A DNA stretch of 64,000 nt. Source: Tribonema minus. Lineage: Eukaryota > Sar > Xanthophyceae > Tribonematales > Tribonemataceae. Both the position numbers and the translations under genes were made by a program. Below the pieces are notes generated by a model. It made no database searches, was not told the origin of the DNA, and was given only the letters and a program-made list of their open reading frames with translations. The stretch covers positions 310,001-374,000 of the forward strand of contig JAFCMP010000013.1 in the NCBI GenBank assembly GCA_017506865.1, in the 5' to 3' direction. Positions within the stretch are counted from its first letter, which is position 1. Every line of letters starts with the position of its first letter. Of this stretch, positions 18,557 to 63,938 are shown in pieces.

Positions 18557-21500
18557 CCCCCGCCCCCCCTCTGCCCAGGCGCCGATGCTTGCTGCGAATC
18601 CGAAATCTACAGCTCGAAGCCCCTCTGCAGCAAGGCCGGCAGCGCCCCATGCGTACGGGACCCCCCTTCGGACCCCCCTAAAAAAACGGAGCCGCTGCCA
18701 AAACCCCCCGCACCGGGGGATGGCACCACGACCGTGACGTCATATAGCGACGACGGTTCATCTATTGCGGATGCGCCCAAGCACAACCAGCCGAGCGCTG
18801 CTGCGCAGAACTTCAACATCCAGCTGATCGCGGCCGACGGGACGCCGGACAAGTACCACGAGTACTTTGCAAAGGCGAAGGCGCGGTGGCAGGTGAGGGG
18901 CGACGTTCCCCCTTGTGTATGAGCGCTGCTGTGGTTGTTGCTGGACCGGGTAGGGGAAGGCACGGTGGCAGTTGGCGCTCTCCTCTGTATCGGAGTGCTG
19001 CTTCGCATGCCGCTGCTGAGCCGTGCGGATGAGGCGCGGTGGCAGTTGACGCTCCCCCTTTACATCTGAGCGCTGCTGCGGATACCGCTGCTGAGCCATG
19101 AGGATGAAAGCGCGAGGCTGGTAAGTTTATCTTGCGTGGGAGGACTGCTGCGGCTGCTGCTGCAGACGATGATGCAGCTGCCGACGGAGATGTGGTGGCA
19201 ATCGACGCTCCCCTTTGAATCTTAGCACTGCTTCGCATGCTGCTGCTGAGCCGTGCGGACGAAGGCGCGAGGCTGGTAAGTGCATCTCAGCGCTGCTGTG
19301 GCTGCTGCTGCGGACAATGATGCGGCTGCCGAGCCGTGCAGGCGAAGGCGCGGCGGCAGGTGACGCTCCTCTTCCTGTCTGAGCACTGCTGCTGTAGCTG
19401 TCGCAGACGCTGCCCGGCGCGCAACCGGCCATGTCGCGACACCAGCGTGTCATGCGAGGAACGGCCTCCACGTTGTGTTGCACGGTGGAGTCTGGCGCTG
19501 TTCTAGATGTGCTCAAGTCGGTGACGTCAGCCAATGGCTGGATTAGCGGCAAACTGTGGTCGCGCGCGTACTTCAATCGCTGAGGCATTGTGCGCCTGCG
19601 CTGCCTGTCTGCACGCACGCAGTGCATGTGTACTTCAATTACTGAAGCGTTATGAACAGTGCATCTGCTGCATGCTCTTGCGCACGCCGCAGCAAGTCAT
19701 AGTGGGCGACGTGTTGAGCGTCCCTAAGTCACACCGCCGATCAATGGCCAATTCGTGCGGCAACACGTTGAGGTTGGTCGCCTTGCATGCGTATTACAAT
19801 CAGTCGAATATCACGAACTGTGCGCCCGCTGCTTGCCCTCTCGTGCATTGCAGCAAGTCATAGTGGGCGACGTGTTGGATGTCCCCAAGTCAACGACGCC
19901 AGTCAATGGCTGGTTTGATGGCAACTTGGGCACCATGGGCAGCGGCGGTCAGCGCATCGTCGCCACTAATGAGTACTACGGCAACGTGGATGACATCGTG
20001 ATTGGCTACAAGATCACCTATATAGGTGAGGGTCGGTTAGAATCAGGGTTAGGGTCAGGGCTAGGGTGATGGTTCAGATTTAGGTTAGCGTTTGAGTGCT
20101 ATGGCCACGTGGACGATGTTCTCATCGAATACAAGATCACCTAGAAGTATGCAGCATGTAGCTGAGGGGGGCGGTGTTTTCTTTGTGAAACGGGGTATGC
20201 TGTGCCGTCAGGGTTAGCTTGAGGGTCAGGGCTAAGGTTATGGTTAGACTTGAGCCTAGGGTTAGAGTGCAAAGTGCCGTGGCCATGTGGACGGCAGTAA
20301 GATTGGGAGCTCGTGCGGCACCTGGGGGCTTCACATGGCGACTTGAAGTTCTAAACTTCAACTTCAAGCTGTGAAACTTCGGCTACAGGATCACCTGTAC
20401 ACGCCAATGTGACATCAGTGTTTGGCAATGTTCACGTCGTGCACTCAGACCCAGGACAGATGCTATTCATAACACTGGGAGGGGCTGCAGCTGCTTGAAG
20501 AACCTTGAAGAACTTTGTTTGACAATTTAATCTGACGCACCCTTTGTTTGACAATTTAATCTGACGCACCAACACACGCTCCGCTGCGTTGCAGACGGAA
20601 AGAACGGCGTGCACGGGCAGGCCGGCTCGACGTACGTGCGCGGCGGCAACGTGTTTTACCGACGCGTCGTTTTGATGAACGTAGCAAGAAGTTTCAGAAC
20701 CAGAGTGCACTGCATGATAACTCGACCTTTGCGAACGCCACTGATTATTTCCAACGCACCAATGCGGTTCCGCTGCGTTGCAGACGGAAAGAACGGCGTG
20801 CTTGGGCAGGCCGGCTCGACGTACGTGCGCGGCGGCAACGTGTCCCACGACGCCAGCCAGATGGACATCCCTATCTCCGGCACGATGGAGTTTGACTCGG
20901 CTGATGCTGATGAGCTGATCAAAGAGGGGGTCTTCGATCAGGTGGTGCTGCACGAGATGGGGCACGTTCTGGGTGAGTCGAACTTCAAATTACATTTTTG
21001 AAGCTGATGACGCTGACGATCTGGTCAAGGAGGGTGTCTTCGACCAGTTCGTGCTGCACGAGACGGGGCACGTTTTGGGTGAGGTGTTGAGTTGCAAACT
21101 TCAAATCATAAGCTTCAAGTTGTTTTTTGTGCGACTCGGCTGATGTTGGTGAGTTGATCAAGGAGGGAGTCGTTGACCAGGTCGTGCTGCACGAGATGGG
21201 GCACGTTCTGGGTGAGTCGCTGAGCTGCAAACTTCACATTATAAGTTGAAGTTGTGGAATGCACGACCCCGCTGAAATGCCGGCGAGCTGATCTTGACCC
21301 GAGTCGTGCTGCACAAGAGGGGGCGCGTTCTGGGTGAGCTGTGAGTCGTGAAGCTTACTTGAACTTCAACTTGTGAACAAACTCACATGCACCTCAACTT
21401 GTGAGCACACACAATCTTTGATGTGTGAACTTGAGAAAGCGTAAGCGCAGCATCATATGACGATTTCGCAGGTGCTGACGAGTGCGTCAAGAGCCGGCCC

Positions 21501-24500
21501 TTCGACCAGTTAGTGCTGCATGGCGCGGGGCAAGCTCCTGGGCACGTGTCACAAGTTGAACTTGGCATACATACACTTCATGTTTTCAAGTATTTCAAGT
21601 CGTGACTCTGCGCATGCCGAGCAGCCCGTCAAGGAGGGAGTCTTCGACCAGGTCAAGCGAGATCGAGCACGCTATGTGCGGCGACTTGCGAGCCGCTCCT
21701 CATGCCCCCAAAGCCACGCTGACGTGTAGTTTACACCTCACAGTCGTATATCTGTTCTGGCTTAGTCTTATCTGAAAGTCACACCTTTTCTCTTGCTGCA
21801 AGCATTGGCAACTGGCCCACAACACTCAACCGTTGCGGCGGCGTTTTGTTGTCTCAATTTTTAATAGTACCGTATGAAACTATAATTAGCCCGTGGGGCG
21901 AGTTTTTTATGAGAGCGAAAAAAGGGGGGTGGGGCACCATTAATATTCGGAGAAGAAAAGGGTGGGGTGCATTAATGTTTGAGCCATGTTAGCTCATCTA
22001 ACCACCATCATGAGGTGCCAGCATGCTTCTACGCCGCTCCTGAAACCAGTTCAACTTTCGGAAGCTACTATTCAGTTCACAGTTCCCGACCACACTTTTT
22101 CTGTTTTTTTCGGAAAACGCATCAGCGCGCGCGCCACTTTGAGCTGATACAGCTTGCAACGCAGGCGGACTTGATCAGAGCCGTCTTAAGTAATTCCATA
22201 GATGTGCTCGTGATCAGTCAGCCTACCAGAGGGCCGCACAGCGCGTGTTGTTTGTGGTGACTGGTGCGCATTCCAGGTGAAAAGTGCCTTCACAAAACGG
22301 GGAGAAGCTAATGTTTTGAACCATGCGCTGCCGACGTGAGCGCTGCTAAGCAAAGTGGTAGCCTGCCAGTGTGAAATAGGGACCATAGAAGCCGATTTTC
22401 AATTGGTGCTCATGGTCAAAAGTTATCACTGTCGTCGCCAGCACCTCCGTCTCTGTGCAGTACTAATCGTTCGAAAATGAGCGCGAGAAACAGCCCGAAA
22501 CGACGCAAGAGGGCTGAGCACAAACAACGATGCAGCAGAATGGAGATACCGCGCAATGGCGATGGAGCTGGGAGGCTCTCTACATCTGTGTCGTTAGGCT
22601 GAGACATAGCGGTGGCGGCTCTCAAATTTGCGTGGAAATCCACCGAGTCGTTCGCAAACGACGACTGCTTGAAAAGTGGAGCGAATTTGAGTACAACGAG
22701 GCAGAAGAGTGGAGATACCGCGCGATAGGGATGGTCCTGACAGGCTCGCTGTATCTGTACAAGTAGTCTGACATACGGCGATTGCAGCTCACGAAATTGC
22801 ATTCAAAACCATCAAAGCGGCTGCAAGTTACGGCTGCCTGAAAATCGAGGTCGGCAATTTTGAGCGCAAATTTTTTAGTAGATTGAAGATAGCACGCAAT
22901 AGGCATGGAGCTGGCACGCTCACTGCAAATGTGCTGATAGAGTGGTACTGAACGATTGCGTTGCACCAATTTGCAGAGAAATTCATGGCGGCGATCACAA
23001 GTTATGAATGCTTGAAAAGTGTGGGCGGGAACCGTGAACCGAATAGTAGCTGCTGCCTGTCGGAGGCCTTTTGTGGGTTTGCCTACATTGTTGGCTGCCT
23101 TTCTGTCTGCTCTGCGCACACATAGTGTGGTGATGTAGCATGAGTCACTGAGTTTGCATAGTACACGTTTGCAGAGGGTACATGCTGCGTATGCATGTAA
23201 GAATAAAGGGGGGTGGGCACATTTATATGAGCGAAAAAATTGGGTGGGGCGTCATTTTATGAGGGCTCGGAAACTCTTGAAAAAACTCGCCCCATGGGCT
23301 TAATTATAGATAATACGGTGTTTATTGTTTCAGCTCATTTCTGCTTCTAGATGAAATTTCATTGACCTAAAATGTGCACCTGCTCTACAGGCATTGGTAA
23401 CTGGCCGACAACGCTCAACCGCTGCGGCAGCTGCGAGGTCAAGCACGCGACGTGCGGCGACGCGTGCGAGCCGTACTACACCAGCGGCGCGACGGGCGCG
23501 TGCCATGCTCAGCAGCAGTTTGAGAAGCTCGACCTGGGCGTGGGGCCAAATCTGCTATTAGGTCAGTTTAGGATTGTAGGATTCATTATGTTATACAGTA
23601 TACATTATGTGAGTTTAGGATACATGACCGAACCTACGCCAATGCAAAGGCGCTCCGTGGTGGCGAGCGCTTTGTCTTGGGTGATCTCGGAGTTGCATCA
23701 GGTGAGCTTAGTGTTTTATGTACTAGGTGAAATAGAATTCATGACCGGACCTGCTTAATTGGGTTAAGTTTAGCATTCATTATTCACTAGGTGAATTTGG
23801 GATTTATGACTTTGCTTCGATGCATTGTGGTCGTGCAGTGGAACCTTGTGGCTCTTCAACTATCAGGCGAGTATAGGATCTATGACTTTCAAGTTTAGGA
23901 TTCATGACTCTACTTCGATGCGTGGTGGTTATGCAGTGAAACCTTGTGGCTCTTCGACTATTAGGCCAGCTTAGGATCTATGACTTTTGAGTTTAGGATT
24001 TGTGACTCTATTCCCATGTGCGGTGGTTGTGCAGTGAGTCATGGCGCTGCGGCCACACGACCTTAGGATTACAATTACGGCTGGGTTAAGGTTGGGTTTG
24101 GGTTTAGGTCAGAGTTTGGGTCTGGGTTAATTAGGGATAGGGTTTGTGGAGGTTTGCGACGGCAGCAGTGAGCGGCGGCAGTGCCCTGCGCGCATCTGAC
24201 CAGGCCCGGCTGCCGCATGTAGTGACCATTGCCGACTGCACAAGTGGCCAGTGCTGATCGCTGCCATGTGTGCACATCGTTGCCAGGCTCGGCAACCTCA
24301 GGCGTGCAGGCTCATTATATGGCCGCCGCCTTGCCTAGTGACCATAATTGACGACACGAGGTGACTGTTGCTGAGTGCTGCCCTGTGTGCGCGTCGTTGC
24401 CAGCTCGGCAACCCCACGCCCATGCCGACTCATCATTCTATGGCAGCTGCCTTGTAGAGTGACCATTTCAAGGTGACGATCGCTGAGCGGTGCCCTGTTG

Positions 24501-27500
24501 CGTCGTTGCCAGGCAACTTCACGCTTATTCTATATCGGCTGCCTTTTGTAGTGACCGTTGCTGACTACACAAGTGACCACTTCATAGTCAACACATTTTG
24601 CTTCAAAACCCGCACCTACTATAATTTCAGATTCTATCGAGTATACATTATCGTAAATGAATTTGAGCACAGCGCGGCGCCTGACAGCCGCCGCTTTGCG
24701 CCTGCCATGTGCGTGGTAGCCTGTTGCAAGGCGTGCTCTGTTCACTGGGCCAGGATTAGGGTTACGGCAATTAAGGTTAGGGGTAGGGTTACAGCAAACC
24801 GTTGCCTGACAGCCGCCGCTTGCGTCTGCGATGTCTGTCCTTGCCGCGCTACAGAAACAAAGGGGGGAATTTCCACGGAGTGCACGCACTGGTCAGAGGT
24901 GAGCTCACATGTCCATTTTTGTTGATTGCCCCCAACTGATTACAACTCGTTTTCTGTGAATTTTTTCAAGACTTGTTGTAATTCTGAATGCTAAGTACCT
25001 CCATTTCTGACTCCTAGCCTAAAACCTAAGCACCATCTTCATTTTTGTTGACTACCCTAACCCTAACTGAGTAAAACTCATTTCTGTGAATTTTTTTTGA
25101 ACTATTGTAATTATGAATGCTAACACCATTTCCGACTTCTAACCTAGAACCTAACGTCATCTCACTCCTAGGTCCCATAACCTGGGGGTTCATGTCTGTC
25201 CCCTCGAGTGCACAAACGGCATCGTGCGTTTGGCTGTATCGCCAAGGAGTTTTCAGGCGACTGGGCACCAAGCGTTTTTTCAGTTTTTGCGCAATGCTGT
25301 ACACAACTTCAAATGCCTTGACGCAGATGCCTGTGCATGTCACAATGCTCCGAACTCACTCACAGCCAGGGTGTACACTCTACACAATAAATTCTGATGT
25401 AACCTCTTTTGTGCATTCGCTGTAGCAGCAAAAGTATGTATCATGCGCAACAGACGGACTTTTCATTCATGGAATATAGACGGACTTTTCATTCATGGAA
25501 TAACAGGAATTCACGAACGTGGGTGTTTGCGCCAGTGTGTGTGTTCATTTTCGTGCACCAAACTAAAAAGAACTATGGTTGGGGCATATGCTGTCACTGC
25601 GACTGTTTGAAGTCTGGATTGAACTCTGTTTGTGCGCCACCTGAGCGCATCACCTGAGCGCTGCAACCGCGTTTCCTTGTACATAGAGTCTATCAAAGCA
25701 GAAGTGCAGTACCTGGTATGCCTTGGCGAGCTGTTTTATGGCACTCTCTGCTTTGTTCTTGCTGGACTAACGAAGCCTTGTCTCACACATGCATCCCTAC
25801 TGTAAATACGACTATTTTGCAGCCTGGAGCCCTGTTTGCATGACACTGACACTGCTACCATATTTCTTTTCTTGCAGGAACAATTGGGGAACGAGCTGAT
25901 GACAGGGTGGCTAGATGGCAACAACCCCCTCAGCACCATCACCATGTGAGTTGCCGCACAGAGTGACTCGTGCGTCGCTGCACATAGAGACTTGTGATTC
26001 ACTGCACATAGTGACTCATGACTCGCCGCACACAGCGATTCGTGACTCGCTTTGTGGTCAATGATTCAACTGCCGTCAATGTCCATTAAAGCGACAGTGA
26101 TCGGGTGCCTGAAGCAGGACACCTCGATGGGCCAAAATTCCAGGAATTTTTCGCTCATCATCCATCGTGCTCATTCATGTAGTCGTTAACGTGGCCTGCT
26201 TTCAGTAGGTGACGCCGCATGCTGACATTACTTGAACAGCGATTAGATTAGAACTATCATGTCGGCGAAGTGACCGCTTCACTCATGAGGATGGTCCACT
26301 CTCTATGAAGCAGCTAAGCCCGTACCTGCGTGCAAGTCTTGGCTGCGTTTTTCGCGCTTTCACTGGAAGGCGCGCAGTCACAGATGCACGGCATCTGCTT
26401 TAGTGCTCTTCAAGGCCTCAAGATTAGTGCTCTTCAAGGCCTCAAGATCTTACATAGCGCGCTGCTGCCATACGCATGCATTGTGACTGAAGTTACGCAC
26501 GCACGGTGACTGTAGTTGCTACCGAGGCATGGTTCCACACCTGGACAATATTTACGCACAATCGCTGCAGTGGTGCACCACACCTAACCCTAACCCTACG
26601 CCTAGGGTTGTGCTGATCATTCCCATGCATTGCTGAACATGACACAGATGATACATAGATGATGTCAATGGTGTCAAGGGTCAGGCGTCCTGACTAACAT
26701 GGACTTTCCGCCACGTCCTGGCCATCATCAGCATGCATCGCCTGACATCATGCATGCATCAATGGTCACACGGGCCAGGCATTTGCGTGGGCCCGTTTTT
26801 AGCGACTGCATGCACGCGAGACTGTGGTTAGGGTTAGGATTAGGGTTAGGGTTTGGGCTAGGTTGCCACATGCGCGACAGTGTCATCTTTCTTTTTTCTT
26901 ACCCATGTACCGCATGCAGTGCGCGTCTCCTGCACGGGACGGGCGCGCATTTGTGCGACGCCCGACTTAATGCTGTCCTTACTCAGTGGTGGTCAGATGC
27001 ACTCGTTCTTGTCCCCTGGCACCCTGCTAAAAACGGGACTGGTAGGGGTCCGGCCGACGGCGTGCATCCCCCCTCCGCATGACCTAATCCTACTTGCTCA
27101 CTGTGTGCATGCATTCTCTTGCTGCTTTCTGTCATCCTCAGCGGGGCCCTGCACGATTTGGGGTACCAGGTGAGGACCCTGAGAAGTTCAACAACTTGAA
27201 GTCACAACACGAAACGCGCCATGCTTTACCCTGTGAAATTCAACAACTCGAAGTCACAACATGCAACGTGCCAAGCTTTAGGCGCAGCGTTATGCAGGTG
27301 CACAGCGCAATGTGCGCTTGTACAGATCTGTCCTGTTTGATTGCATACCCACATCAGGTCTGAACAGTCGTTGTGGCAGCGCTCGTGCTGGTCCCCACTG
27401 CCAGCTTTCACACGACAGCATGACGTAGGCACGGTCGATGCACAATGCTGCAATGAGTGCACTTTGAAGTACTGCTCGTCCACTACCTGCCATGTGCCCC

Positions 27501-28115
27501 GGCGTGCCGTTTGCGTGCGCTCACGTGCTGCGTCATGTGCTGCATTGCCTTGCCATTTGCTGATGGACTCAGCACGTTCATGTTGAAGTTTTCCATCTTG
27601 AAGTTGGGGCTGGTGTTGCCCCCCCTGCCATGCAACTTGCAGTTTTGACACGCCTCTCTGATGGCAATACGGCGTGCCTCAATGACCGCGCAGCCGCCCC
27701 TCTGCGCTGCTCTGTCTCGCAAGTGCAACTTGATGTTATGGCACGCCTCTCAGATGGCAATACGGCGTGCCTTCCTGACCATCACGCATTCTGCGCGCCA
27801 CTGCTCTCAGCGCTGCTGTCTCACAAGTGCAACTTGAAGTTGCGGCACGCCTCACAGATGGCAAGACGGCGCGCTTTGCTGACCATCACGCATGCTGCGC
27901 ACCACCGCCCTCTGCGCTGCTGCCTCTGAACCTCGCCTTTACCCTGGCCCTCACCCTACCCCTCTCTGGACCCGCAGGTCGACTACTCCGTCGCGGATCC
28001 TTTTGAGATCCAGGCGGCCATGGCAGCGCTCAAGCTGATCGCGCCGCGGCAAAACCTCTACGACCGCTACGGAGGCGTGATGCTGCGGCTAAACCCCAAG
28101 CGGGTAGACTTGTAG
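15981..28115 (+). CDS. secreted leishmanolysin-like (metzincin) zinc metalloprotease with an N-terminal Cys-rich module
   Basis: Ten exons: 15981-16108, 16716-16747, 18579-18892, 19854-20025, 20784-20972, 23391-23561, 24855-24898, 25878-25945, 27142-27169, 27978-28115. All phases agree and they total 1284 nt, giving 427 residues plus stop. Residues 1-21 form a signal peptide (ending AIFA). Residues 24-80 carry a CGECGGYGC...ACC...C...PC module. The protease domain has HEMGH at 272-276, so His272 and His276 are zinc ligands and Glu273 is the catalytic base. It continues GIGNW, then THWSE with His347 as the likely third ligand, and ELMTG with the Met-turn Met358. The order HExxH, distant His, Met-turn is that of M8/leishmanolysin-type enzymes. 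It probably acts outside the cell or in the secretory pathway on protein substrates. No pro-domain Cys switch was identified. The intron between exons 5 and 6 holds a TIR element. Confidence 0.9.
17594..17712 (+). repeat. dispersed repeat family B, copy 1
   Basis: Contains attctcgctcagggcgcgaa, gatgaatggtatctaacttg, ctgtacggaatcc and gacagtctgaaagtgtctca. It matches the copies at 62260-62440, 63201-63381 and 63770-63938. Located in a metalloprotease intron. Confidence 0.8.
18225..18409 (+). repeat. dispersed repeat family A, copy 4
   Basis: A full-length copy of about 185 bp in the intron before metalloprotease exon 3, over 90 percent identical by eye to copy 1 at 2771. Confidence 0.8.
18940..19375 (+). 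repeat. about five downstream echoes of the metalloprotease exon 3 end plus donor
   Basis: The exon end gcgaaggcgcggtggcag followed by gtga recurs near 18970, 19028, 19188, 19258 and 19335, each followed by tgacgctcc.. or taagt.. The intervening sequence repeats gagcgctgctgcgg..tgctgagccgtg. Confidence 0.8.
19500..19790 (+). repeat. two upstream echoes of metalloprotease exon 4
   Basis: At 19685-19775, gcagcaagtcatagtgggcg and on through gtccctaagtca copies the real acceptor and start at 19851. At about 19508-19560, caagtcggtgacgtcagcca and the following atggctgg is an older copy of the same exon start. Confidence 0.85.
20095..20400 (+). repeat. downstream echoes of metalloprotease exon 4 end
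   Basis: gtgctatggccacgtggacgatgttctcatcgaatacaagatcacct at 20095-20143 copies the exon 4 3' end. Weaker copies are near 20275-20300 and 20380-20400. TTAGGG-like runs lie between them. Confidence 0.7.
20572..20660 (+). repeat. upstream echo of metalloprotease exon 5
   Basis: About 80 bp (ctccgctgcgttgcagacgg through cgtgcgcggcggcaacgtgt) almost identical to the true acceptor and exon 5 start at 20766-20850. It retains a usable acceptor. Confidence 0.9.
21003..21665 (+). repeat. five downstream echoes of metalloprotease exon 5 end, including its HExxH codons and donor
   Basis: Copies at about 21003-21090, 21137-21220, 21284-21330, 21470-21560 and 21612-21660 repeat gatcaaggagggagtcttcg, then accaggtcgtgctgcacgag and atggggcacgttctgggtga. 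The first two keep a full donor. They still encode HETGH and HEMGH; later copies are decayed. Confidence 0.92.
21800..21845 (+). repeat. upstream echo of metalloprotease exon 6 start
   Basis: gcattggcaactggcccaca followed by acactcaaccgttgcggcgg copies the exon 6 start at 23391 from 1.5 kb upstream. The TIR element lies between the two. Confidence 0.85.
21870..23322. mobile_element. non-autonomous DNA transposon-like element with about 40-bp terminal inverted repeats
   Basis: The left end (about 21888-21915: ccgtatgaaactataattag, then cccgtggggcgagtttttt) is the near-perfect reverse complement of the right end (about 23280-23322: aaaaaactcgccccatgggc, then ttaattatagataatacggt). Sub-terminal ggggtgggg..cattaat motifs also recur at both ends. 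The interior holds three roughly 165-bp tandem units and no transposase. It sits in a metalloprotease intron. No clear target-site duplication was seen. Confidence 0.75.
22541..23025. repeat. three diverged tandem units of about 165 bp inside the TIR element
   Basis: Units start near 22541, 22711 and 22874. They share gagataccgcgcaat.g.gatggagctg, ctg..acat.cggcgattg and gactgcttgaaaagtg, with substantial divergence. Confidence 0.7.
23780..24040. repeat. three roughly 105-bp tandem units in a metalloprotease intron
   Basis: Each contains atgactctacttcgatgcgt, then gtggtt.tgcagtg, and the first two add accttgtggctcttcgacta. None matches a coding exon. Confidence 0.7.
24140..24580. repeat. about four tandem units of roughly 110-130 bp in a metalloprotease intron
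   Basis: Units share gtagtgaccattgctgac, cacaagtg, ctgagcg.tgccctgtg and cgtcgttgccaggc.cggcaac. Confidence 0.7.
24916..25160. repeat. 121-bp tandem duplication after metalloprotease exon 7
   Basis: Two adjacent copies share tttttgttga, ctcatttctgtgaatttttt, ttgtaattctgaatgctaa and ctcctagcctaaaacctaa. Confidence 0.75.
25946..26056 (+). repeat. short tandem array starting at a splice donor (metalloprotease exon 8)
   Basis: Units of about 22-25 bp (gtgactcatgactcgccgca, cacagtgattc...) begin immediately after the exon 8 donor GTGAGT. There are four to five copies. Confidence 0.65.
27649..27925. repeat. three roughly 95-bp tandem units before metalloprotease exon 10
   Basis: Units share cacgcctctcagatggcaat, acggcgtgcctt.ctgacc and ctctgcgctgctgtctcgca. 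Confidence 0.75.
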
Positions 28116-29912
28116 CGAACGGGCCGGGCCTGCAGGGGAGGGGGCTCCGGTGCTGAGCGGTGACAGCTCCGACTGCCCGCAGGCGCATACCGTAGATTAC
28201 CATCTCACACTCTCAGGCGGTGGGTGCGGAGGGCCCAGGTGGCGAGCAGCAGCTGCGTGGTGCATACCTACGTGCAGGGCGTGTACTGACGTGCATCACG
28301 CGGTTGCGCCGATGCCCTTGTGACGCACACGTTGGGGGGGGAGGGGGGGGGGGGGGGGGGGCTGCAACCTCAGCGCTCTCAAGGGGTGACCCCGGAGACC
28401 TCTGACGAGCGCGTGGGACAGGCAGGCCTGCGCTGTATCCTAGGCAGGCCAAGGGTGGGGCGGATGGCAAGTAGGACCACCTATTCGCTCCTCAGGGGCA
28501 CATTGATTTGCCGCGTCGAAACGTCAGAGCCTGGCCGCCGTCGCCGACACCTGTTGCGCCTGTGATGCTCCGCTTCAGTTTCTGAGTGGAAGTTGTCTGT
28601 GGGGGGCGACTAGGGGGGAACGAAGCATCGGACACAGTGCTTATAGCTCCAGTAGAAGTCCCGCTGTGGGTACGAGATAATCTGTTTCATGTGGCAGGTC
28701 CTTAGTCTTATTGACAAGCGTGTGCGTTGAACAGTCTGCGGAGTAACGTAGGGCCGGCTCTTGTGGGAGTTGGGAGTGAGAGGGAAAGGGGGGGGGGGGG
28801 GGGGGTTGGCGGGCAACAAAGATGCTTTTTGAGAATCTATGACAAAGAGGATGCGCCGCGCATCCCAAGCACACTGCAGCAGTGCGGCGGCGCAACCACC
28901 GTCGCTGCAAACAAACACCGCGCGCACCGCGCCGCCAGCAAATTTCCCTTTGTGTGGTATCAAGCCCTGTGGTATCCCCTTCATTTGCACCCACCGGCGT
29001 TGCTGAGCGGGCGGGCCGAGCCGAGGCCTTTGTGTCAGAGTGTTTTTCCCTTGATGACCTCATACATACATGGCATCTGTCCTTACCATCTCGGCGACTG
29101 GCGTGCCTGTCTTCATGCTGCTGCTGTTGCCGGTTGCTCTTGCTGCTGGTTGGTTCCGCGCTGCGCGCTTGTCGTGCGCTTCGTGCGCTTCGGAAGTGCG
29201 TGCTCGTGCGCAACATGATGCACAGAGTAAAGAGCGCGCATGCATTGTCGAAGCGCGTCGTTGCGGGCACACATTCTCAGATGTCGCAGGTGGCGCAACG
29301 AAGACTTGTGCGCCCGTGTATCCATTACCTGCGCGTTTATACTAGCGCCCCACATGGCGCGTGATGACACACTTGGTGGAGTCCAAAAAGGGGGCAGACA
29401 GATGGACGAGAATGTGTGGGGGGGAGGGGGGGGGGGGGGGGGCTTAGAAGTTTGCAAGAGATGATGCAAGAGGTGCATGTACAATATCAGATTCTGGTGA
29501 GGTACCAGCTTGACACAAACACACAAGCATCAGAGCTTTCTTGTGCCGCTTGAGCGTTCTTTCATGTATCTGAAGGACAGTGGTGCCCTGCCCAGGGCAT
29601 GTTGTGATCATTTTTCAGAAAATGGGCTCCCCCTTGCGCAATGTGCTTGCCAGGAAGTTCCGCACACGGTGTCTCTCAGTCGCACACAAAGCAGCCCAAT
29701 ATATTATTTCGTTGCGTCAAACTTCATGCGCCACAAGCAGGGAGCAAGCACGAGTTTTTTTGGTGAGATCGCGCGCGCCAATTTAAAAAAAGTTTGTCAC
29801 TTCCGACGAGAACCAGGTTCAACTTGGCTTCGAAGAACGGCGCCAGAAATTCAAGAGTGCTGTGCTGCACTGCTGTTCCTCGCGCGCAGACCTCATTGTG
29901 TGTGGTGCAGAG
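28116..29912. other. intergenic region between the metalloprotease and the ATPase
   Basis: Contains three poly-G tracts (28337-28360, 28788-28806, 29418-29441) and overlapping short ORFs on both strands. A minus-strand open stretch at 28610-28990 has no recognisable domain. The ATPase promoter should lie in the last few hundred bases; no motif was recognised. Confidence 0.45.
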
Positions 29913-32900
29913 ATGTTGCCATCAGGTCCAGTCAGGCCTGCCTTCGGTTGGGGCGATGCATCCGAAGAGAAGCATGTTTCCCCCAAATCTTCGCAGCAAG
30001 CTCAAGCTCGCGCACCTAGTATCTCTGAGGCTTTCGTGGAGCGCCAGCAGGAGCTCTCCACCCTCTCCGTTAGGCTGGTAAGCAGATCCATCACTCCTTG
30101 TCGCATTGTGCTGCTAGGCTTGGACAAGTCTTCGGCCTTTGTCAGCTGCTGCGGCTCATCCAAACATGCATCGACCTGTGTGCGCTGCCCTCTGATCTCA
30201 GCGCCATGAGATGGTCGTGGAGCTCGCTGAGCGTCTCAAGTATGGGCTCGAGCTGCAGAATTACCACCTGCTCACTACAGAGGAGCTCGCCGGTCGCCTC
30301 TCCACCAGTGTCACCAACGGACTATCTTCGGCAGCGGCAGCGCAGCGCTTGGAGGAGCAGGGCCCCAACGCGATCCCCCCACCGTCCAGTCGGCCCCTAT
30401 GGCTGCGCTTCCTGCTGTGCTTCTTCACAGGGTTCGCTCCACTGCTGTGGACAGCAGCTTTCTTTGTGTTCCTGAGCTGGAAGCCTTTTGGTGCGCCGCC
30501 CACCGACGTCTACAGCTTGGTGCTGGCGATCGTACTCATTGCCGATATCCTGCTCTCCGGGATCTTCACCTTTCACCAGGTCAGCTGAATGATCAACATG
30601 CATTAGGTTGTGTCAAGCACTAATTGCTGTTGAGCTGTATTGTGCTTCTTCTCAATCCCTTGGTAATTCACTAGCCTGGCAAGCCTAGCGCTTCGGCTGG
30701 ACTAGAGCTTTACTTTGCCCTAGTCGAGCTTGCTGACGTCGTAAGTGCAGCCACAGATCGGAGCACGCGCGCGCGCCGTGACCCTAACCGCAATCCAAGT
30801 CTTATTTTCAACCCCCATGCGCAAATGTTCAACAGATGCAAGACATAAGTCGTCGCGCGTGCTGGCCAGCTTCGGCCATAGCCCGTGTGGATTCACTCCG
30901 ACCTCAGTGCTCGCGGTCGGGCTTAACCTAACCCTACTGGTGCTAGCACGATGACAGCATAAGCGCGGTCACAGATCTCAGCAATCAATGTACCGCATCC
31001 GTAACTCTAACCCTAACGTAAACGCTGTCACACACACCATCGCACCCACTGTACCTCAAAGCTTGACCCTAACCCTAACCCTCGCCCTCACCTTAACTGT
31101 ACATACCCTCTCACTAAGTAGCCCTTAGGCTGCCCCTCTGCTAAACCTACCCCTCATCCCGCCTGTACCCTCTCTCTAACCCTAACCCTGACCTTGATAC
31201 CCCATGCACGAACCACCCTCGCCTTCCAACAAGCGCAGGACTCAACTCAAACCCTAATAACCCCAACTCCTACTCATCCTTCAACAAGCGCGCACGACGT
31301 CAAGACGTCGCGCGTGCTAGCCTGCTTCGGCCCTAGCCCTCGTTCACTCACCTCAACCGTGTTGGGATTCACTCTGACCTCGGTGCTGGAGGTACATAGC
31401 ATCAGCCTGGGACTCTCCCTGAACCTAACCCTGACCTTTACCCTAGCCCTCATTCCCCCATCCAGCAAGCGCAGGACTGCAAGCATGGTCGTAAATCATA
31501 GCACCCTCTGTACCCTCTCCCTAACCGCAACCCCAATCCTAACCTTACCCCTCACCCTTCCCACCTGTACCCTCTACTCTAAGCCTAACCCTAATCCAAA
31601 CCCTAACCCTACCCCTCATCCCCCATGCACTCACCACCCCATCATCCTCCAACATGCGCGCAGGACGTCGAGACGTCGCGCGTGCTGGCGGGCGTCGCGA
31701 TGCTCGTCCCGCCCGACTGCGTCGTCATCCGAAACGGCGGCGCCGCGCGCGTGTCAGCGCTCAACCTTAACCCTACCCCTAACCCTAACCCTCAGGACGT
31801 AACCCTAACCCAAACCCTAACCCATCTTCCAACAAGCGCGCAGGACGTCAAGACGTCGCGCGTGCTGGCGGGCTTCGCAACGCTCGTCCCGCCCGACTGC
31901 GTCGTCATCCGCGACGGCGCCCCCGCGCGCGTGTCAGCGCTCGACCTTGTCGTCGGTGACGTCGTCGTCGTGCAGGCGGGCTGCCGCGTGCCCGCAGACA
32001 TGCGCGTCGCCGCCGCCGCCGGCCTCAAGGTCGACAAGAGCACGCTGACGGGGGAGTCGGAGCCGTGCCGCGTAACCGCCAAAACCGCCGGCGCGTCCAC
32101 GTCGCTGCTCGAGGTGCGTTGCGACGGCTGCGGCGGCGGGCAGTAGCAGCGCGTAGCTGAGACGCTCGATGCGACGATTGCGCACTGCTGCTGCAGATGT
32201 TGAGCAGCGGGCTGCGGTGCAGTAGCAGCGCAGCTGGGGGATTCGCCGCAGCGATTGCGCACGGCTGCAGATGTCGAGCAGCGGGCTGCGGCGGCCGCTG
32301 CGGTTCAGTAGCAGCGCGCCGCTGAGACGTCTGGTGCCGCGATGCTCGCGTGCTATCATGGATGTTGCGCGGCGGAGGGTGCATGACGCGTGCTTCACGG
32401 ATCAAGTGAGACTTCAACAACGACGCCAGTGGTGAGGCAGCGTGCGCAGATTCCCTGCGGCGAACGCCAGCTTGCAGGGTGGAAAGCACGTTCATGAATG
32501 TTCCACTCACAAAGCTGTGAGCTGTCATGAGATGCAGTAGTCTTTTGCTCTCTTGCGTCGTACGTGACGCGCTGGTCAGCGCTTGCAGTGCTCTCAGTTT
32601 TGGCGACTGTGTGGAGCCTTCCTGTCCGACTGAGCTCGAGCCACCCTCATCACAGGCCTTGACACCCCTGTCAATGGGCTCAACCATTAATCTGCCCCTC
32701 CTGCCCCCCCCCCCCCTCCCCACCCTCACAGGCCACAAACACCCTGCACATGGGATCCAACGTCTGAAGGATGAGGGCACCGTTCTGCTCCACCTGGCTC
32801 GAATTGCTCCCATCACAGGCCTTAAAACCCCTGCCAATGGGCTCAAGCGTTCATCTGCCCCTCCTGCTTGCCCCCCCCCCCCCCCCTCACAGGCCACAAA

Positions 32901-35900
32901 CACCCTGCTCATGGGATCCAATATCGTAGAGGGCGAGGGCACCGGCATCGTCTTTGCCTGCGGCGCCGACAACCAGCTCTCCAAGATAGCCAAGCTGGCG
33001 AGCGGAGAGTCGGCGCAGACGACCCTGCAGCAGGAGATCGGCCGTTTCGTCGCCATCATTGCGGGCTTCGCGGTGCTGACGGGTGCCGTTGTGGTCGTCT
33101 GGTGGGCGGCGTTTCTCAACACGCAGCACCCCGGCTTCATGTCCATCGGCACCATGATCGCCAACGCCATCAGTGAGTCGCGCCAGAGAGTCGTGTCAGT
33201 GATTCGTGTCAGTGAGTCGTGTCAGTGAGTCGTGTCAGTGAGTCGTGGCAGTGATTCATGTCAGTGAGTCGTGTCAGTGAGTCATGTCAGCGAGTAATTT
33301 AAGTGAGTCATGTCAGCGAGTCGCGCGCCGCTCGCGCGCTGTTGTCGACGCCAACGATCACCGCATCGTCTGCGAGTAGAGCTCGGATTGCCACCACTTG
33401 CCAAGGAAACGCAGAAGAATCTGATCATAGTGGTTCTTGCATGAGGCGCATCCACAGCAGTGTGTGAGGAGGTGGTCATCAATGCATGCAACATTGCGGC
33501 TACTTTGCCATGCAACGGGCTTGCAAATGTTCAAACACAAAAGCGCAGACCGCGCGGCGCGAATGAAACGTTCCACAAATCCATTCATTCATATCAATCA
33601 GCATACTTCGCAGTATTTCATATCACCCCATACAGGCGCTTCCACTCACCCGTTAACTGCCAACACGCGATTGAGTCCTGCGGCAGGCGGCAGCGATGTG
33701 AAGTCAACTTCTGAAGGCATACCTACATACCCTAGGCACGCCGCTTTTCCTTCTGATTTGCACGGTCGACGCGCTCCGTTCTTGCGCTGCGCAGGCGTCG
33801 TTGTGGCGTTTGTCCCCGAAGGTCTGCCGCTGGCGCTGAGCATGGGGCTTGCCATCATCGCCAACCGGTGAGCATAATTTTTCTTGCAACGTTTTTTCAG
33901 GTTTCTTGTAAGTATAATTAGGGTTAGGGTTAGGGCGCTGGCACTGAGCGTGGGCGTTACCCTTTCCGCCAGCTGGTGAGCTGTAACTCTCTGTAGCCGT
34001 ACCCAGATTTCAGGGCGAAAATTGGGGTTATTGTTGGCTTCACATTTGAGGGTAGGGGTTAGGCCGCTACCGCTGAGCATGGACCTTGCTATCATAGCCA
34101 ACCGGTGAGCAGACACATTTGCTTATTTCGTCAGAACGTTATTCTCTCACGAGCCAAATTGCAGAAGATCTCAAGCTGACCTCAGAAAGATTCTGGCCAA
34201 ACCCGCAATATCAGGTGCACCACTTCAAGTCTACACTTTTTGCAAGCCCTAGTAACATTGCCCCGTCTCAAAAGCCTGAGGGGCGGAAGTTTACAATCAT
34301 TGCCAGGTTGCAGGAGAGGATTGGGACGCTCAGGCTGGCGCTGAGCCCATCATTGCCAACCGGTGAGCAGAAAAATACTCGGACCACTCGCTTCTCATCG
34401 GCATGCGCAGAGTTTGGTCAGGTTCTTGTCAAGTTCACAGTGAGGGTTAGGGCTGGGCCGCTGACGCTGAGCGTGGGCGTTGCCCCTTGTGCCAACTGGT
34501 GAGCTGTTAGTTACTCTCCACAGGCGCAACGAGGGTCTTTAGAAAGCTAGAGTTGGGGTTACTATCAGGTTCACATTTTAGGGTAGGGGTCAGGCCGCTG
34601 GCGCTCAGCATGGGGCTTGCCATTCAGTACCATCTGTCGAGCAAGTTCAATGGCGGAAGCGATCAATGGTGCTGCCTCTGAGAACACGGTGGCCCGGCTC
34701 AACCGCCCGGACCGTTCCTGAGACCATTCCTTCCTGTTATACTATTGCTGCAGTGCCGACACGTACTGCCTCATTGAAGCTTTGTATGTTTACCTTGAGC
34801 CCCGTAATTATCATCCATGTTGTTCAACAGTACAAAGCGTAGTACTCTCTGCTTGCGCTGTTTTGACAATTCTCGTTTTGGCGCCGGAAAACTCAGACCA
34901 TTCATGTCGAGCTTGCTACTTTTACCCAGGCACTCTTTTGTTCTCGCACACTATGGTGCTGCACCCCGGTCGTTTGTTACTGCTCACCACCATCAAATGC
35001 CCCCGATTAACGTGTTCTGGTGTGTGCCGGCCGGATGATTTTGTTGCTACAAGGACTTCATGTCTTGCGCCCGCTGGTCATTCTGTGCTGCCCAGGGTTA
35101 AGGATCTCAACTTCAACCTAACCCTAACCCTACTCCTGACCCTAGGGCGGGTCCCACGTGAAGGCCCTCGGCGAGCTGCGAAGGCCCTGGCGCTCGTATC
35201 TCTGTTCACTCCCTGCCTCCGTACTCGCTTCGTGCTGCCTCAGACTGTGCTCCGTGCACTCCATCCTGCTCAAGCGCCTCGGCACCATAGAGACCCTCGG
35301 CTCCGTGTCGCTCATCGCCTCCGACAAGACGGGCACGCTCACGCAGAACAAGATGAGCGTTGCTGCGGTCATCACCGCCGCAGCAGCGCTCAGCACCGAC
35401 GACGCCGCCGCCGTCGTCACCATCGGCAGAGAGGAACTGGACGGTCTTCTGAGCGATGACGCGCGCCGCTTCGCGCCGCTGCTCCGCTTCGCGCCGCTGC
35501 TCCGCGTGGCGGTGCTCTGCAACCAGTCGCGCCTGCAGTCGAGCGACAACGAAGCAGCGGATGATGCTCAGCAGCAGCGTGAGCGCGATACACAGGACGC
35601 TGGCCTCGATGACATTGAGACCGGCGGTGCGTTGACCACTGCGGCCGCTGCCGCCACTGCTGCTGCTGCCGAGCAGCAGCGGCTGAGCGTCGTCGGCAGC
35701 AACGGCATCGACCAGGCGCTGCTGAGCTGGGCGCACGCCGCCGCCGCCGCGCAGCCGCTGCTGCGCGCGCACGCGCAGGAGGCCCTCGTGCCCTTCTCGT
35801 CGGCGACCAAGACGTCGTGCGTCGTCGTGCGGCGCCGCGGCGGCGGCGGCGACGGCGGCGGCGGCACCACCGACGGCAGTGGCAGCGGCAGCACTGCCGG

Positions 35901-38900
35901 CGGCATCGACGGAGGCGGCGGCGGAGGCGACGCGGTCGCGCAGGGCGCTGCCACCGCCGGCGGCGCTAGCACAGGCGATGCGCCTGACGCTGCCGCCGCC
36001 GCCGCCGCTGCCGCCGCCGCTGCCGCTGCAGCCGCGCCGCCGCTCGCCGTCCTCGTCAAGGGCGCGCCCGAGCGCGTGCTGGCGGCGTGCGCGACGCGCT
36101 ACGACGCGCGCGGCGCGGCGGTGCCGCTCACGGAGTCAGCGCTCAGCGCCATCACGGCTCAGGTGGAGGCGGCGGCGAGCCACGGCCAGCGCGTCGTGGC
36201 GCTTGCCGAGAGCGCCGCGCTGCCGCCCGCGCAGTACCCCGAGGGGTACGTGTTCGCCGCAGACCCCGAGCCCAACTTCCCGACGACGGGCCTGACGTTC
36301 GTCGCGTGCGTGGCGGTCACGGATCCGCCGCGCGCGGGGGTGAGCGCTGCCATCGCGGCGCTGCGCGGCGCCGGCATCAAGATCGCCATGGTGAGAGCCT
36401 GGGGAGTCGCTTGCTTAGTGTTATGCCTAACCCTAACCCTATCCCTAACCCCAGCCTAGCCCTTACCCTAACCCTAACTCGTGGCGCACCCGGGGCTTGT
36501 CGTGAGTGCCACTGATGAGGGTTAGAGAATGTAGAGGCAGCAGCACATTTGGCGGGCCTCCGCGCTGAGCTGCGCGACGGCGCCATCGAGACTGCCATGT
36601 TGAGGCTCAGCTATTGGTGGCCGCCGCATGTGCTCATTGTGCCTAGGGATACTGAGCATGATGTGTGAAGGGTATGTATCAGAAAGTCGAAATATTGAGC
36701 GAATTTACGTCTGCGGGTGTGCGGCGCCAGAGGGTGAGCACTGCCACTGCAGAACGTCGTATCCTCGGAGCCAAGATTGCAACAGCAAGTACGGATTTTG
36801 GCATGCCGCCGGCGCGGCGAACCACAACGCCTGCGCAGGCCTCATACACAGTGCCAGCACCAGTGCGACAGCTTCAGCAAACATCGTGTGACCGAAGCGG
36901 CCTGCTGCTCCAGGAGCACTGGTCGCTCGTCCTCTCAGCGAGCGGCACAGACTTGGGGTTAGGGTTAGGTTAGGGTTAGGCACAGCGTCGATGCCTTCGC
37001 CACCGCAACAGCCGGATTGCGAGGTGTGTTGTTCACGCGACCTGCAACCTCACAGTGCCGAGGGCAGGTCGCTGAGCGCTGCTGCATGCGCACCAGGCGG
37101 CCACCATCACAACCCCCCGCTGCCCCACTTTCTGTAGCAGTCACTGGAGTGGGACTCACTTGTATCCCCGTTTTTTCATTGATGCATACGATGGTGAACA
37201 GGACTTGTTCCTCACCCTGTCAGTACGATGTATGGCGCACTCATATCCCATTAGTGTCTTATCCTGTCAGCATGAGGTATGGCACACTCATATCCCATTA
37301 CTCCACGAATGCAATGGTGAACAGACCTTGTTTCTCGTCCCTGTCCTCCGTATGACGTAACGGCTACGCAGGTGACGGGTGACGCTCCCTCGACCGCAGT
37401 CGCCATCGCACGCCAGGTCGGCATCCTCAGCGGCGCCGCCGATTTGGACAGAGTCACGCAGTACACCGCGGCAGCGCTCAGCACCAGCAAGTCAGCACGG
37501 CTCAGCGCCATGGACTTCAGCTCCGTGTCTTGTTCGCTTGCGTCGGGCGCGGCGTGCGGCGGCGGCGGCAGCGGAGAGTTACTGGGGCAGCGCGCGGCCG
37601 AGTTCAAGTCGGATGCGCAGCGGCGCTTGGAGAGGGGGGCTGATCATGGGGGGGAGCAGCAGCAGCAGCAGAGCTCAGCAGTGCTGCTGGTCGGTGCGGA
37701 GGTGGAGACGCTGTCGCGCGAGGGCTGGGACTTTGCGCTGGCGCACCGCGAGCTCGTGTTCTCACGCGCGACGCCGGAGCAGAAGCTGCTGCTCGTGAGG
37801 GAGGCCATGAAGCGGGGCGACAGGTATGCATGTATGTATGGTCTCTTCTTCTTGCTTGTCTTACTCTTGTCTTACTCTGATTGACTTCGTGCTCACAAGG
37901 GAGGCCATGAAGAGGGGAGACAGGTATCCATATACTGCGAAGTATGTTGCATTGCTTCATCAATCCGTCTGACATGCACCGAAGTGTGGTGCTCTTCAAG
38001 CCATGATGATGACAATCTCGCAAGGACAGAAGCTGCTGCTTGTAAGGGATGCCATGAAGAGTGGTGCATTTACGGTCCTCTATTTGTTCCCTCACTGGCT
38101 TGACGCTTCTACTCACGAGGGACGCCATGACGCGGGGCGACGGGCATGTATGTATGGCCCTTAGAAGCTGCTGCTCGTGAGGGAGGTAATGAAGAGGGGG
38201 GACAGGTATGCATGTGTTGTCCTTGAAAGCTGCTACTCGTGAGGGAGGCCATGAAGAGGGGGGACACGTACGCATGTATGCTTTTTTGTTTTCTCACTCG
38301 GTTTGACCTGCGTCAAAGTGTGGTGTTCTTCAAGCCATAGTGTTAAGAATATTGAAAGGACCGAAGCTGCTGCTCGCGAGGGAGGCCATTAGGAGGAGTG
38401 ACAGGTACTGATACATACGTGTAGTCTTTCGCACCCTGCTTTGACCCTCTGTCAAGGCGTGGTGTTCTTATTTTGAGTCTAGCAGTGTGATGACAAGCGT
38501 GGTGCGTGAAGTATGACTTTGTGCTGTCAAACAAACACTTCATTGTTTCAGAGCACACTATGATAACAACCCCCCCCCAATCCTCACTGCTGTAACTGCC
38601 GTAACTGCTGCAGAGTGGGGGTCACCGGCGACGGCGTGAACGACTCGCCCGCGCTCAAGAACGCCGACGTGGGCATTGCAATGGCCTCGGGCTCGAGCGT
38701 TGCCCGCGACGCCGCGGACATTGTGCTGCTGAGCGATGACTTTGCCGCCGTCGTGCATGGAGTGCGCGAGGGGCGCCTCATCTTCGCCAACCTCCGCAAG
38801 GTGAACTTGACGTTTGGAGAAAAATGCAAGAAAGAGCTCATCGTGCTGCTGAGCATGACACGACAGGGCGCCTCATCTTCGCCAACCTCCGCAAGGCAAA

Positions 38901-46439: not shown

Positions 46440-46830
46440 TCATTGAAGCCTGAGCTCCGTGCTGGCCGCAATTTCTTTCTTGCATTGGGTGACAGCGGCG
46501 CGCTCAGCGACCGCCGCCGCCGACAACGACTCTGTGCTGGCCGCATTGCATTGATGACACCTGGGCAGGTACCGAAATGCGTTGCATGCACGCCACCTGG
46601 GCGCACGACAGCGGCGCTCAGTTGGCCACGCGCACACGCGGAGCGCTGCCATCACAGCGTGTCCCAGCCCTTGTCATCGGAGCCTGAGCTCTGTGCTGGC
46701 CGCATTTTTTCTGCATCGGGCAACAGCGGGGCGCCCAGCGACACGCCGCCGCCGCCGCCGACTCTGCGCTGGCCGCATTGCATTGGTGGGCAACGGCGGG
46801 GCGCTCGGCGACGGCGGCGCTCCGCGACAC
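46440..46830. repeat. irregular tandem repeat downstream of the PfkB gene
   Basis: Blocks near 46450-46495, 46530-46560, 46680-46730 and 46765-46800 share gagctc.gtgctggccgca.tt and gggcaacagcgg.gcgc.cagcga. They lie just after the PfkB stop codon and may include echoes of its last exon region, but I could not align them to coding sequence. Confidence 0.5.
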
Positions 46831-63120: not shown

Positions 63121-63200
63121 GCAAGTTCAACATGAAGTATTTTCAGAAGCACGCCACAACTTCAACTTGAGGCTCACGCCTGCACCTCAAGGCCTGTGAG

Positions 63201-63381
63201 TACTTTTTATGAATTCTCGCTCAGGGCGCGAAAAAGCCCAGATGATTGGCATCTAGCTGTACGGAATCTACATGTCGTATGACAGTCTGAAAGTGTCGTA
63301 ACGACAACCACTAAAACGCCGCCGCCGCCAAATGGCATCTCGGGATCCTCCCCTACGTCCTCCTCCATGTGCCCCCCCCCC
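63201..63381 (+). repeat. dispersed repeat family B, copy 4
   Basis: A forward full copy ending gtcctcctccatgtgccccc, almost the exact inverse of the copy at 62260-62440. It lies just downstream of BRCT-gene exon 4. Confidence 0.85.
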
Positions 63382-63769
63382 CTGGATTCTGCCATGTGTG
63401 TCATGACACGGCCAGAGTACGCCATGTGGAGCGCTGCCGACAGAGCCGAGCGTGTGAGTACTAGACTGCCCAGACTGCTTTAGAAATGCGCATTCCATCA
63501 ACATTCCAGCGCTTTACAGCCGTGAGTGTTGGACACAGAGTAAAACCAGAGTAACATCGTGGCCTGATTTAGACTTGTGGTGCCCATTTAGTCAGCCAGT
63601 ATCTTGCGTGTGCTATTGATGAAGTTGTCTACCTTGTGCAGTAGCTCTGTATTCATCAGCAGTACTATCATAGGGCGCAGTGCAGGCAAAGCTGCTGCGT
63701 TCAAGCAAACTTCACGATTGCATAGGACACCCGGCCTCCCTCGAGGCCTTCAAGTCCACAAGCACCTTT

Positions 63770-63938
63770 CATTAGTTCTTGCTCAGGGCGCGAAAAAGCC
63801 CACGATGAATGGCATCTAACTTGAAGTTGCTGTACGGAATCTACGTCGTGTGACAATCTGAAAGAGTCTCATGACAACCACTTAACGACGCCGCCACGGC
63901 ATGTCGAGATCCCCCCCTACGTCCTCCTCCATGTGCAC
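63770..63938 (+). repeat. dispersed repeat family B, copy 5
   Basis: Forward copy (ttgctcagggcgcgaaaaag through gtcctcctccatgtgcac), slightly diverged, near the window's right edge. Confidence 0.8.

Follow-up and report, generated by a model that had tools for sequence, protein, structure and literature searches.

Intron lengthening is usually ascribed to transposons or neutral insertions, and direct local repeats with array dynamics are familiar from tandem exon duplication and minisatellites. The units described below differ in that they straddle one exon edge and that only one of the junctions is presumed to be used. Schimmel et al. (2021, PMC8355091) describe small tandem duplications as frequent and link them to breaks that have 3' overhangs. 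A tandem duplication that crosses an intron-exon boundary carries the splice signals along, and a new intron arose in this way in one gene (2016, PMC4974935). TTAGGG repeats at internal chromosomal sites have been ascribed to break repair (Santagostino et al. 2020, PMC7215372). Here a stretch of 64,000 nucleotides (nt) of the xanthophyte Tribonema minus (PX clade), hereafter the window (contig C13:310001-374000; assembly of 158.2 Mb in 554 contigs), was compared with these systems. Some of its introns carry direct copies of the splice boundaries of their own genes. The processes of PMC8355091 and PMC7215372 are the closest described ones that were found. Local small tandem duplications are shared with staggered-break repair, but the abstract of PMC8355091 is without junction bias or exon anchoring, and young pairs in T. 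minus are mostly spaced. As in the intron gain of PMC4974935 a boundary is crossed and splice signals are included; unlike in that gene, it is introns already present that gain length, at many boundaries, and the copies are apparently unused. The telomere motif occurs inside chromosomes here too, but its link to the copies is weak and lies in few arrays.

A sequence-only reading of the window had claimed that introns carry local copies of the neighbouring splice boundary. For each boundary an 80-base probe centred on it was used; a direct copy had to lie at most 1.5 kb away and to span at least 10 nt on each side, and inverted copies served as control. Direct copies were found at 16/66 window boundaries and an inverted one at 1/66. 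An exon-only search added boundaries 20972, 23390 and 32892, so that 19/66 window boundaries have a nearby direct copy, which bears the claim out. The probe returned 28 window copies and the exon-only search 27, weaker self-BLAST pairs, which may or may not bring the total to the ~60 copies of the sequence-only reading, being left outside these counts; a self-comparison of the window gave 99 direct and 13 inverted pairs less than 500 bp apart. The pattern extends beyond the window. From 13 further stretches taken by place and eight short loci that a search for the AAA family had yielded, 18 outside loci were kept after removal of C1 (GC 0.70, dense genes) and of L001 and L005 (poor gene models). 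In these, direct copies were found at 57/290 boundaries, with 181/2198 mid-intron probes and 11/346 exon-interior probes; the inverted controls gave 4/290, 25/2198 and 8/346, respectively. Self-pairs with an offset below 800 bp were direct in 332 cases and inverted in four (299,798 bases). The copied pieces are gene-specific exon edges, and duplications that cross an intron-exon boundary are present. The boundary tests cover a 293-kb sample of the genome, which is not fully random because L001-L008 came via the AAA-domain search and L031 as a paralogue. Within it, the two outcomes that would have counted against the idea, copies as common away from junctions and copies placed on both sides of an exon alike, were tested for, and the idea was not refuted. 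Exons were predicted with a purpose-made gene finder, of which the first, loose settings over-predicted exons and a stricter setting was used. Hand-set exon models replaced the automatic ones for a P-type cation ATPase gene and a 'metalloprotease' gene in the window and for the ATPase paralogue L031, and 14 predicted exons resembling a longer neighbour exon were treated as copies and removed before the counts.

The copies lie on a preferred side of the exon. In the window, acceptor copies were found upstream in 16 cases and downstream in two, and donor copies downstream in nine cases and upstream in one. The side had been said to be always consistent; this is mostly so, with three exceptions, two of which concern the predicted exon 46656-46763; this exon and exon 46848-47070 are alike at the donor end. 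Outside the window the ratios (upstream:downstream) were 36:1 for acceptors and 0:52 for donors. If in-place duplication of a unit across an acceptor is to leave the reading frame intact, the downstream acceptor has to be the one in use; for donors it is the upstream one. A simulation of untargeted, uniform duplication gave 37:0 for acceptors and 0:44 for donors. The side rule is the geometry of duplication across a junction with one junction kept in use. It supports cross-junction duplication but, since it arises without targeting, is silent on targeting and lends nothing to the suggestion of a junction-targeted process.

A plain explanation of the junction signal is that local tandem duplication is uniform while purifying selection acts on exons. 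The template of a copy's exon side is then conserved, and as this side decays it remains recognisable longer. Raw rates are an unfair test of this, because intronic copies count as mid-intron matches and exon templates slow decay. A null simulation was made with uniform duplication, selection on exons, decay and deletions, and the ratio of the junction to the mid-intron copy rate (J/I) and the ratio of near to far probes (near/far) were calculated. Replicated runs gave J/I 0.32-0.59 and near/far 0.41-0.85 (0.54 and 0.64 in one run), and two ten-gene pilots gave J/I of 0.92 and 0.40 with near/far of 1.3 and 0.5. The observed values outside the window were 2.39 (locus bootstrap 95% confidence interval (CI) 1.62-3.79) and 2.4. 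Observed J/I was 1.53 (1.18-2.09) with introns of at most 1500 bp only and 2.80 (1.79-4.44) without locus C160; the ten outside loci with any junction copy had copies at 57/146 boundaries vs 178/944 mid-intron probes (ratio 2.07, Mantel-Haenszel 2.12). Uniform duplication also fails to account for the near-junction gradient, which persists in purely intronic probes, where exon conservation plays no part: in outside introns of at least 600 bp, 46/328 probes at 8-128 nt from the junction had a copy vs 70/1207 at more than 248 nt (p=0.0005 by permutation within introns), and in the window 18/85 near vs 34/320 far. Of the connected components outside, 61 were junction components and 17 intron-only (78% junction; uniform repositioning 25%, 17-35%); the window had 18 of each (50%; uniform 26%, 14-42%). 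These ratios omit 13 exon-interior and nine intergenic components. The existence of intron-only duplications (35/136 components in all) speaks for uniform duplication, and so do the full side rule, a window J/I of just 1.18 and the absence of junction bias among fresh tandems (0/24). The rival is nevertheless already disfavoured, and we give it a small but real chance of being right. A simulation with hand-chosen junction-spanning birth rates gave J/I 2.21-2.41 and near/far 2.29-3.49, and one setting matched the observed levels (junction 0.199, mid-intron 0.087); its excess of junction births, about ten over background, depends on the simple model. Homologous exchange, conversion and deletion protection near exons yielded no junction excess at the settings simulated. 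Several measures thus favour a bias to junctions that exceeds what uniform duplication gives.

The divergence of the copies is informative on their fate. Mismatches between exon and copy by codon position were 135/1760, 108/1759 and 311/1758 (0.077, 0.061 and 0.177), counted in the 99/111 copies that end at most 6 nt from the junction. This is near the 1:1:2 expected of a copy that drifts at all positions and an exon that does so at third positions only. Gaps were frameshifting in 23/25 cases. Coding or alternative-exon selection on the copies was ruled out by these codon-position and frameshift counts. Through their intron flank 65 copies were found, of which 32 had a core score of at least 40, a cut that itself favours good cores; in such flank-found copies the core divergence was 0.109 and the flank divergence 0.170, a ratio of 0.64 vs 0.67 expected if the exon alone is conserved. 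This fits one-sided decay, also under uniform duplication. Extreme core conservation as a general rule, suggested by pairs selected on their core, was dropped, as copies chosen by flank did not bear it out. The reading that duplication occurred across splice sites with one junction retained fits the copy anatomy, and the copies decay like unused sequence. It may be asked whether selection keeps the copies, extra splice sites or exon edges aiding or regulating splicing. Among the junction-reaching copies (88/107), GT was kept in 50/53 donor and AG in 30/35 acceptor copies, as such selection would have it, but this retention is near that given by about 7% per-site decay. Most gaps are frameshifting, splice-site scores show no difference between junctions that have copies and those that lack them (p=0.63 and 0.84) and eight loci manage without any copy, which makes this explanation very unlikely.

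We consider it somewhat probable that, in a subset of genes, junction-straddling stretches are duplicated in place with births biased several-fold to splice junctions over uniform duplication. A stretch across an exon edge (~55 nt of exon and ~10-120 nt of intron) would be duplicated repeatedly, in direct orientation, and the outermost frame-preserving junction alone would stay in use; acceptor copies would then come to lie before the exon and donor copies after it, both within intron sequence, in which they decay. Of this, the copies with their side and decay, the junction excess and the patchiness between loci are observed. We infer that repair of breaks close to exon edges is the likeliest source of the copies. 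Births may represent error-prone DNA repair at such breaks, where fill-in of staggered ends would leave small tandem duplications, in some cases with telomere-repeat filler; local recombination may afterwards reshuffle the arrays. More tentatively, and with a less than even chance of being correct, splice junctions may be duplication hot spots in this lineage through breakage or re-copying at exon edges tied to transcription, R-loops or splicing, introns growing from their ends. In human cells, promoter R-loops reportedly have the first exon-intron junction as their boundary (PMC5705216), which is a lead only. The exon reach of the units (median 52-56 nt, exons of at least 150 nt; 19 to 40 junctions, depending on the exon-length cut) is shorter than in the uniform model with a median unit of 120 or 160 (Kolmogorov-Smirnov p 0.0007 to 2.8e-7), with no clear difference at a median unit of 90 (p=0.04-0.13). 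In 42/45 young pairs the alignment extended over less than 0.6 of the offset, and 3/45 were contiguous (dropped locus L005 included). A short reach and spaced young pairs would also be expected if exon edges were copied into the same intron by an RNA-templated or footprint-limited process, for instance from reverse-transcribed pieces of pre-mRNA. However, 80/107 copies have flank homology past the junction at p<=0.05 (null drawn from other introns, composition partly controlled), so the duplicated units include intron, the reach is not clearly different at median unit 90, and each copy sits on the side of that particular intron of which it bears the edge. RNA-templated copying is therefore hardly credible. 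Concerning repair traces, contig C2 opens with a long TTAGGG array and TTAGGG is therefore taken as the telomere repeat. Hexamers of this type are commoner in loci with copies (Mann-Whitney p=0.009, nine vs ten loci grouped post hoc). A TTAGGG 30-mer has 2303 forward and 3123 reverse overlapping matches genome-wide, contig-end arrays included; the first 100 places listed include the initial array of C2 as well as sites in the interior of both C1 and C2. In three clean mid-intron tandems of the window (periods 24, 26 and 29) edge microhomology was not seen by eye.

Several observations weigh against biased births by break repair. The window J/I of 1.18 has a CI (0.71-1.84) that includes 1, though it excludes the simulated 0.5, and the probe excess in the window is weak (16/66 boundaries vs 88/428 mid-intron). 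The gradient is shallow in outside introns of 600-1400 bp, with 32/248 at 8-128 nt, 21/290 at 248-428 nt and 32/286 beyond (p=0.0015). There are 24 near-perfect, contiguous short tandem duplications of period 15-51; 1.19 of them would be expected to straddle a junction and none does, and near-perfect tandems of period 60-259 were not found in the 293 kb. Copies with an intron-half identity of at least 0.90 were found at 7/290 junctions vs 54/2198 mid-intron probes, which is no excess, although the null ratio in the simulations is about half. The process may have ceased, the arrays dating from a bygone episode, or what is seen may be the preservation of copies and not their recent birth. The junction excess rests on predicted exons. 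Splice-site score and GC step showed no significant difference between affected and other junctions. Telomere repeats were present at the breakpoints of 14/68 donor and 5/39 acceptor copies vs 186/1835 same-intron windows, an association that is weak because it is concentrated in few arrays. Finally, some exon-found copies combine an identical or near-identical core with a strongly diverged flank, as at donor 5387 of C100 (47/47 exon bases identical), for which simple decay is no explanation; this anomalous subset could stem from gene conversion or array reshuffling. Two readings of copy age were dropped: age-binning by the intron half as proof against junction bias, since in the simulations mid-intron probes fall on intronic copies as well, and overall BLAST identity as an age proxy, because it mainly reflects the amount of diverged flank included.

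The core-identical copies suggest a further explanation, in which the conserved exon edge acts as a permanent template and unequal exchange or gene conversion between exon and copies maintains junction arrays, and the likeness of their cores, without targeted breaks. It is in line with higher-order repeats that have alternating spacers and non-alternating cores (C160 donor 1371, by eye) and with the steep drop of ungapped identity past the donor, from 0.96 at -5..-1 to 0.59 at +6..+10 and 0.40 at +11..+15 (53 copies). Simulated exchange with or without conversion, however, amplified mid-intron repeats more (J/I 0.10-0.58, few parameter sets), and copies chosen by their flank show divergences that fit plain decay. 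Maintenance of exon-seeded arrays thus seems unlikely as the main explanation.

The copies are best illustrated by the P-type cation ATPase gene on the plus strand of the window (29913..40239, end uncertain). Its hand-set exons 1-5 (29913-30077, 30202-30579, 31844-32113, 32893-33172, 33795-33867) and 6-8 (35244-36390, 37372-37823, 38614-38800) form one open frame that matches Pfam E1-E2_ATPase (2.5e-37) and five more families, which fixes the junction positions. The gene continues from 39415 to ~40239; apart from its first eight exons, the exons used here, in this and all other genes, are mostly gene-finder predictions. Copies were found at all five exons named in the sequence-only reading (3, 4, 5, 7 and 8). 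Acceptor and exon-start copies of exon 3 lie upstream of the real junction 31843/31844 at 31258-31329, 31643-31698 and 30838-30874, and a copy of the exon 4 acceptor region lies upstream at 32648..32782 (85% identity to the real 32811-32944). A 13-bp minisatellite of 11.8 units of TCAGTGAGTCGTG occupies 33170..33323 and begins 3 nt ahead of the exon 4 donor (33172/33173), and the donor site itself was therefore amplified; the donor lies within a repeat unit, giving about 12 donor-like sites in a row. Exon 5 end and donor copies (real 33826-33874) lie downstream at 33936..34623, four by BLAST (34063, 34334, 34457, 34594) and a fifth by eye near 33936. Six copies of the exon 7 end and donor follow the real junction 37823 at 37890..38407, and a copy of the exon 8 end (real junction 38800) is found downstream at 38866..38910.

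The 'metalloprotease' gene, also on the plus strand, matched no Pfam family in a Pfam search; a HEMGH motif is visible. Exon 20784-20972 has an acceptor copy upstream (20564..20654, 92% over 91 bases) and three copies of its end and donor downstream (20997..21338, weaker pieces reaching 21654). Of the exons of this gene named before, this one was confirmed, exon 4 was seen by eye only and exon 5 was not confirmed. Sequence matches further place a copy of the end and donor of exon 18631-18892 downstream at 19340..19391 and an acceptor copy of exon 19854-20025 upstream at 19654..19731. On the minus strand, where upstream is rightward, a COG1-like gene, the N-terminal piece of which matches Pfam VPS51_Exo84_N (27.8 bits), was confirmed to have copies of three acceptors and one donor: four at 3703..4231 for the acceptor at 3626, further acceptor copies within 4625..5824 (4625-4695 and 4924-4994 for acceptor 4532, 5754-5824 for acceptor 5656) and one at 7416..7477 for the donor at 7636/7637 (93.5% over 62 bases). 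Five copies of the minus-strand acceptor at 47695 lie at 47747..48288, a region that also holds an 87-bp tandem array. The gene begins with a PfkB-like part, and copies reported for it were recovered at this acceptor; the label itself is sub-threshold (22.9 bits, Pfam cut-off 25.8). The boundaries of the putative BRCT gene had no copies in the gene model used, which has few introns there. Spaced direct repeats at 62185-63936, around and past the last predicted exon of a long plus-strand gene, are possibly unannotated exons with junction copies, corresponding to the BRCT exon 4 of the sequence-only reading. The span 18940..38900 originally assigned to the phenomenon covers two of the genes only. 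A 98-bp tandem array on the plus strand (23796..24037) is of the intron-only class, and together with 24908-25154 it shows that duplication also occurs away from junctions.

The phenomenon is patchy between loci. Junction copies were found at 14/22 boundaries in C100, 18/29 in C160 and 8/18 in L030, and eight loci (C10, C25, C40, C50, C75, L006, L029 and L031) had 0/144 boundaries and 3/1254 mid-intron probes with copies. Affected and unaffected loci were grouped by eye after the counts, L003 (1/8) being taken as affected and L007 (1/9) and C190 (1/12) as unaffected. Detectable local duplications make up 23.4% of intron bases in nine affected loci, 0.7% in the other ten and 11.7% overall. In the window they cover 6595/31206 intron bases (21%), intron-only ones included, and to call the introns filled with copies was too strong; at these shares the claim that they are the main source of intron length is unsupported. 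In affected loci the median intron length is 808 bases if more than 10% is duplicated (n=63) and 475.5 if nothing is (n=32), and length and duplicated fraction show a weak rank correlation (0.19, p=0.06). It is plausible that duplication adds to intron length in these loci. GC step, GC skew and weak splice sites were considered as a cause and rejected, no significant difference being found. The ATPase paralogue L031 (C515:701001-710500) has no copies at eight boundaries and no reported self-match below 2.5 kb. It is without intron 4 (127 contiguous residues across exons 4-5; gain and loss of the intron are not told apart) and has an in-frame TAG in exon 6. L007 and L008, which we take from their predicted proteins to be FtsH-like genes, have similar exon lengths with copies at 1/9 and 4/10 boundaries, respectively, and copies can therefore differ between related genes. 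L009-L010 (C1:60001-80000), with 70% GC, many genes and few introns and with relatives on other contigs of the assembly, C346 and C40 among them, were omitted from the counts.

In titles and abstracts, which leave most subscription papers outside, no description of junction-anchored intron growth was found, and its absence from the literature is thereby unproven. Gene finders mistake such copies for exons, as the 14 removed predictions, which look like copies, indicate. Intron lengthening in T. minus leaves a readable record, since each copy keeps its source junction and thus place, direction and relative age, and the exon serves as a one-sided clock for the age of the copy. If the junction bias holds genome-wide, intron growth in this alga would be linked to damage associated with transcription or splicing.

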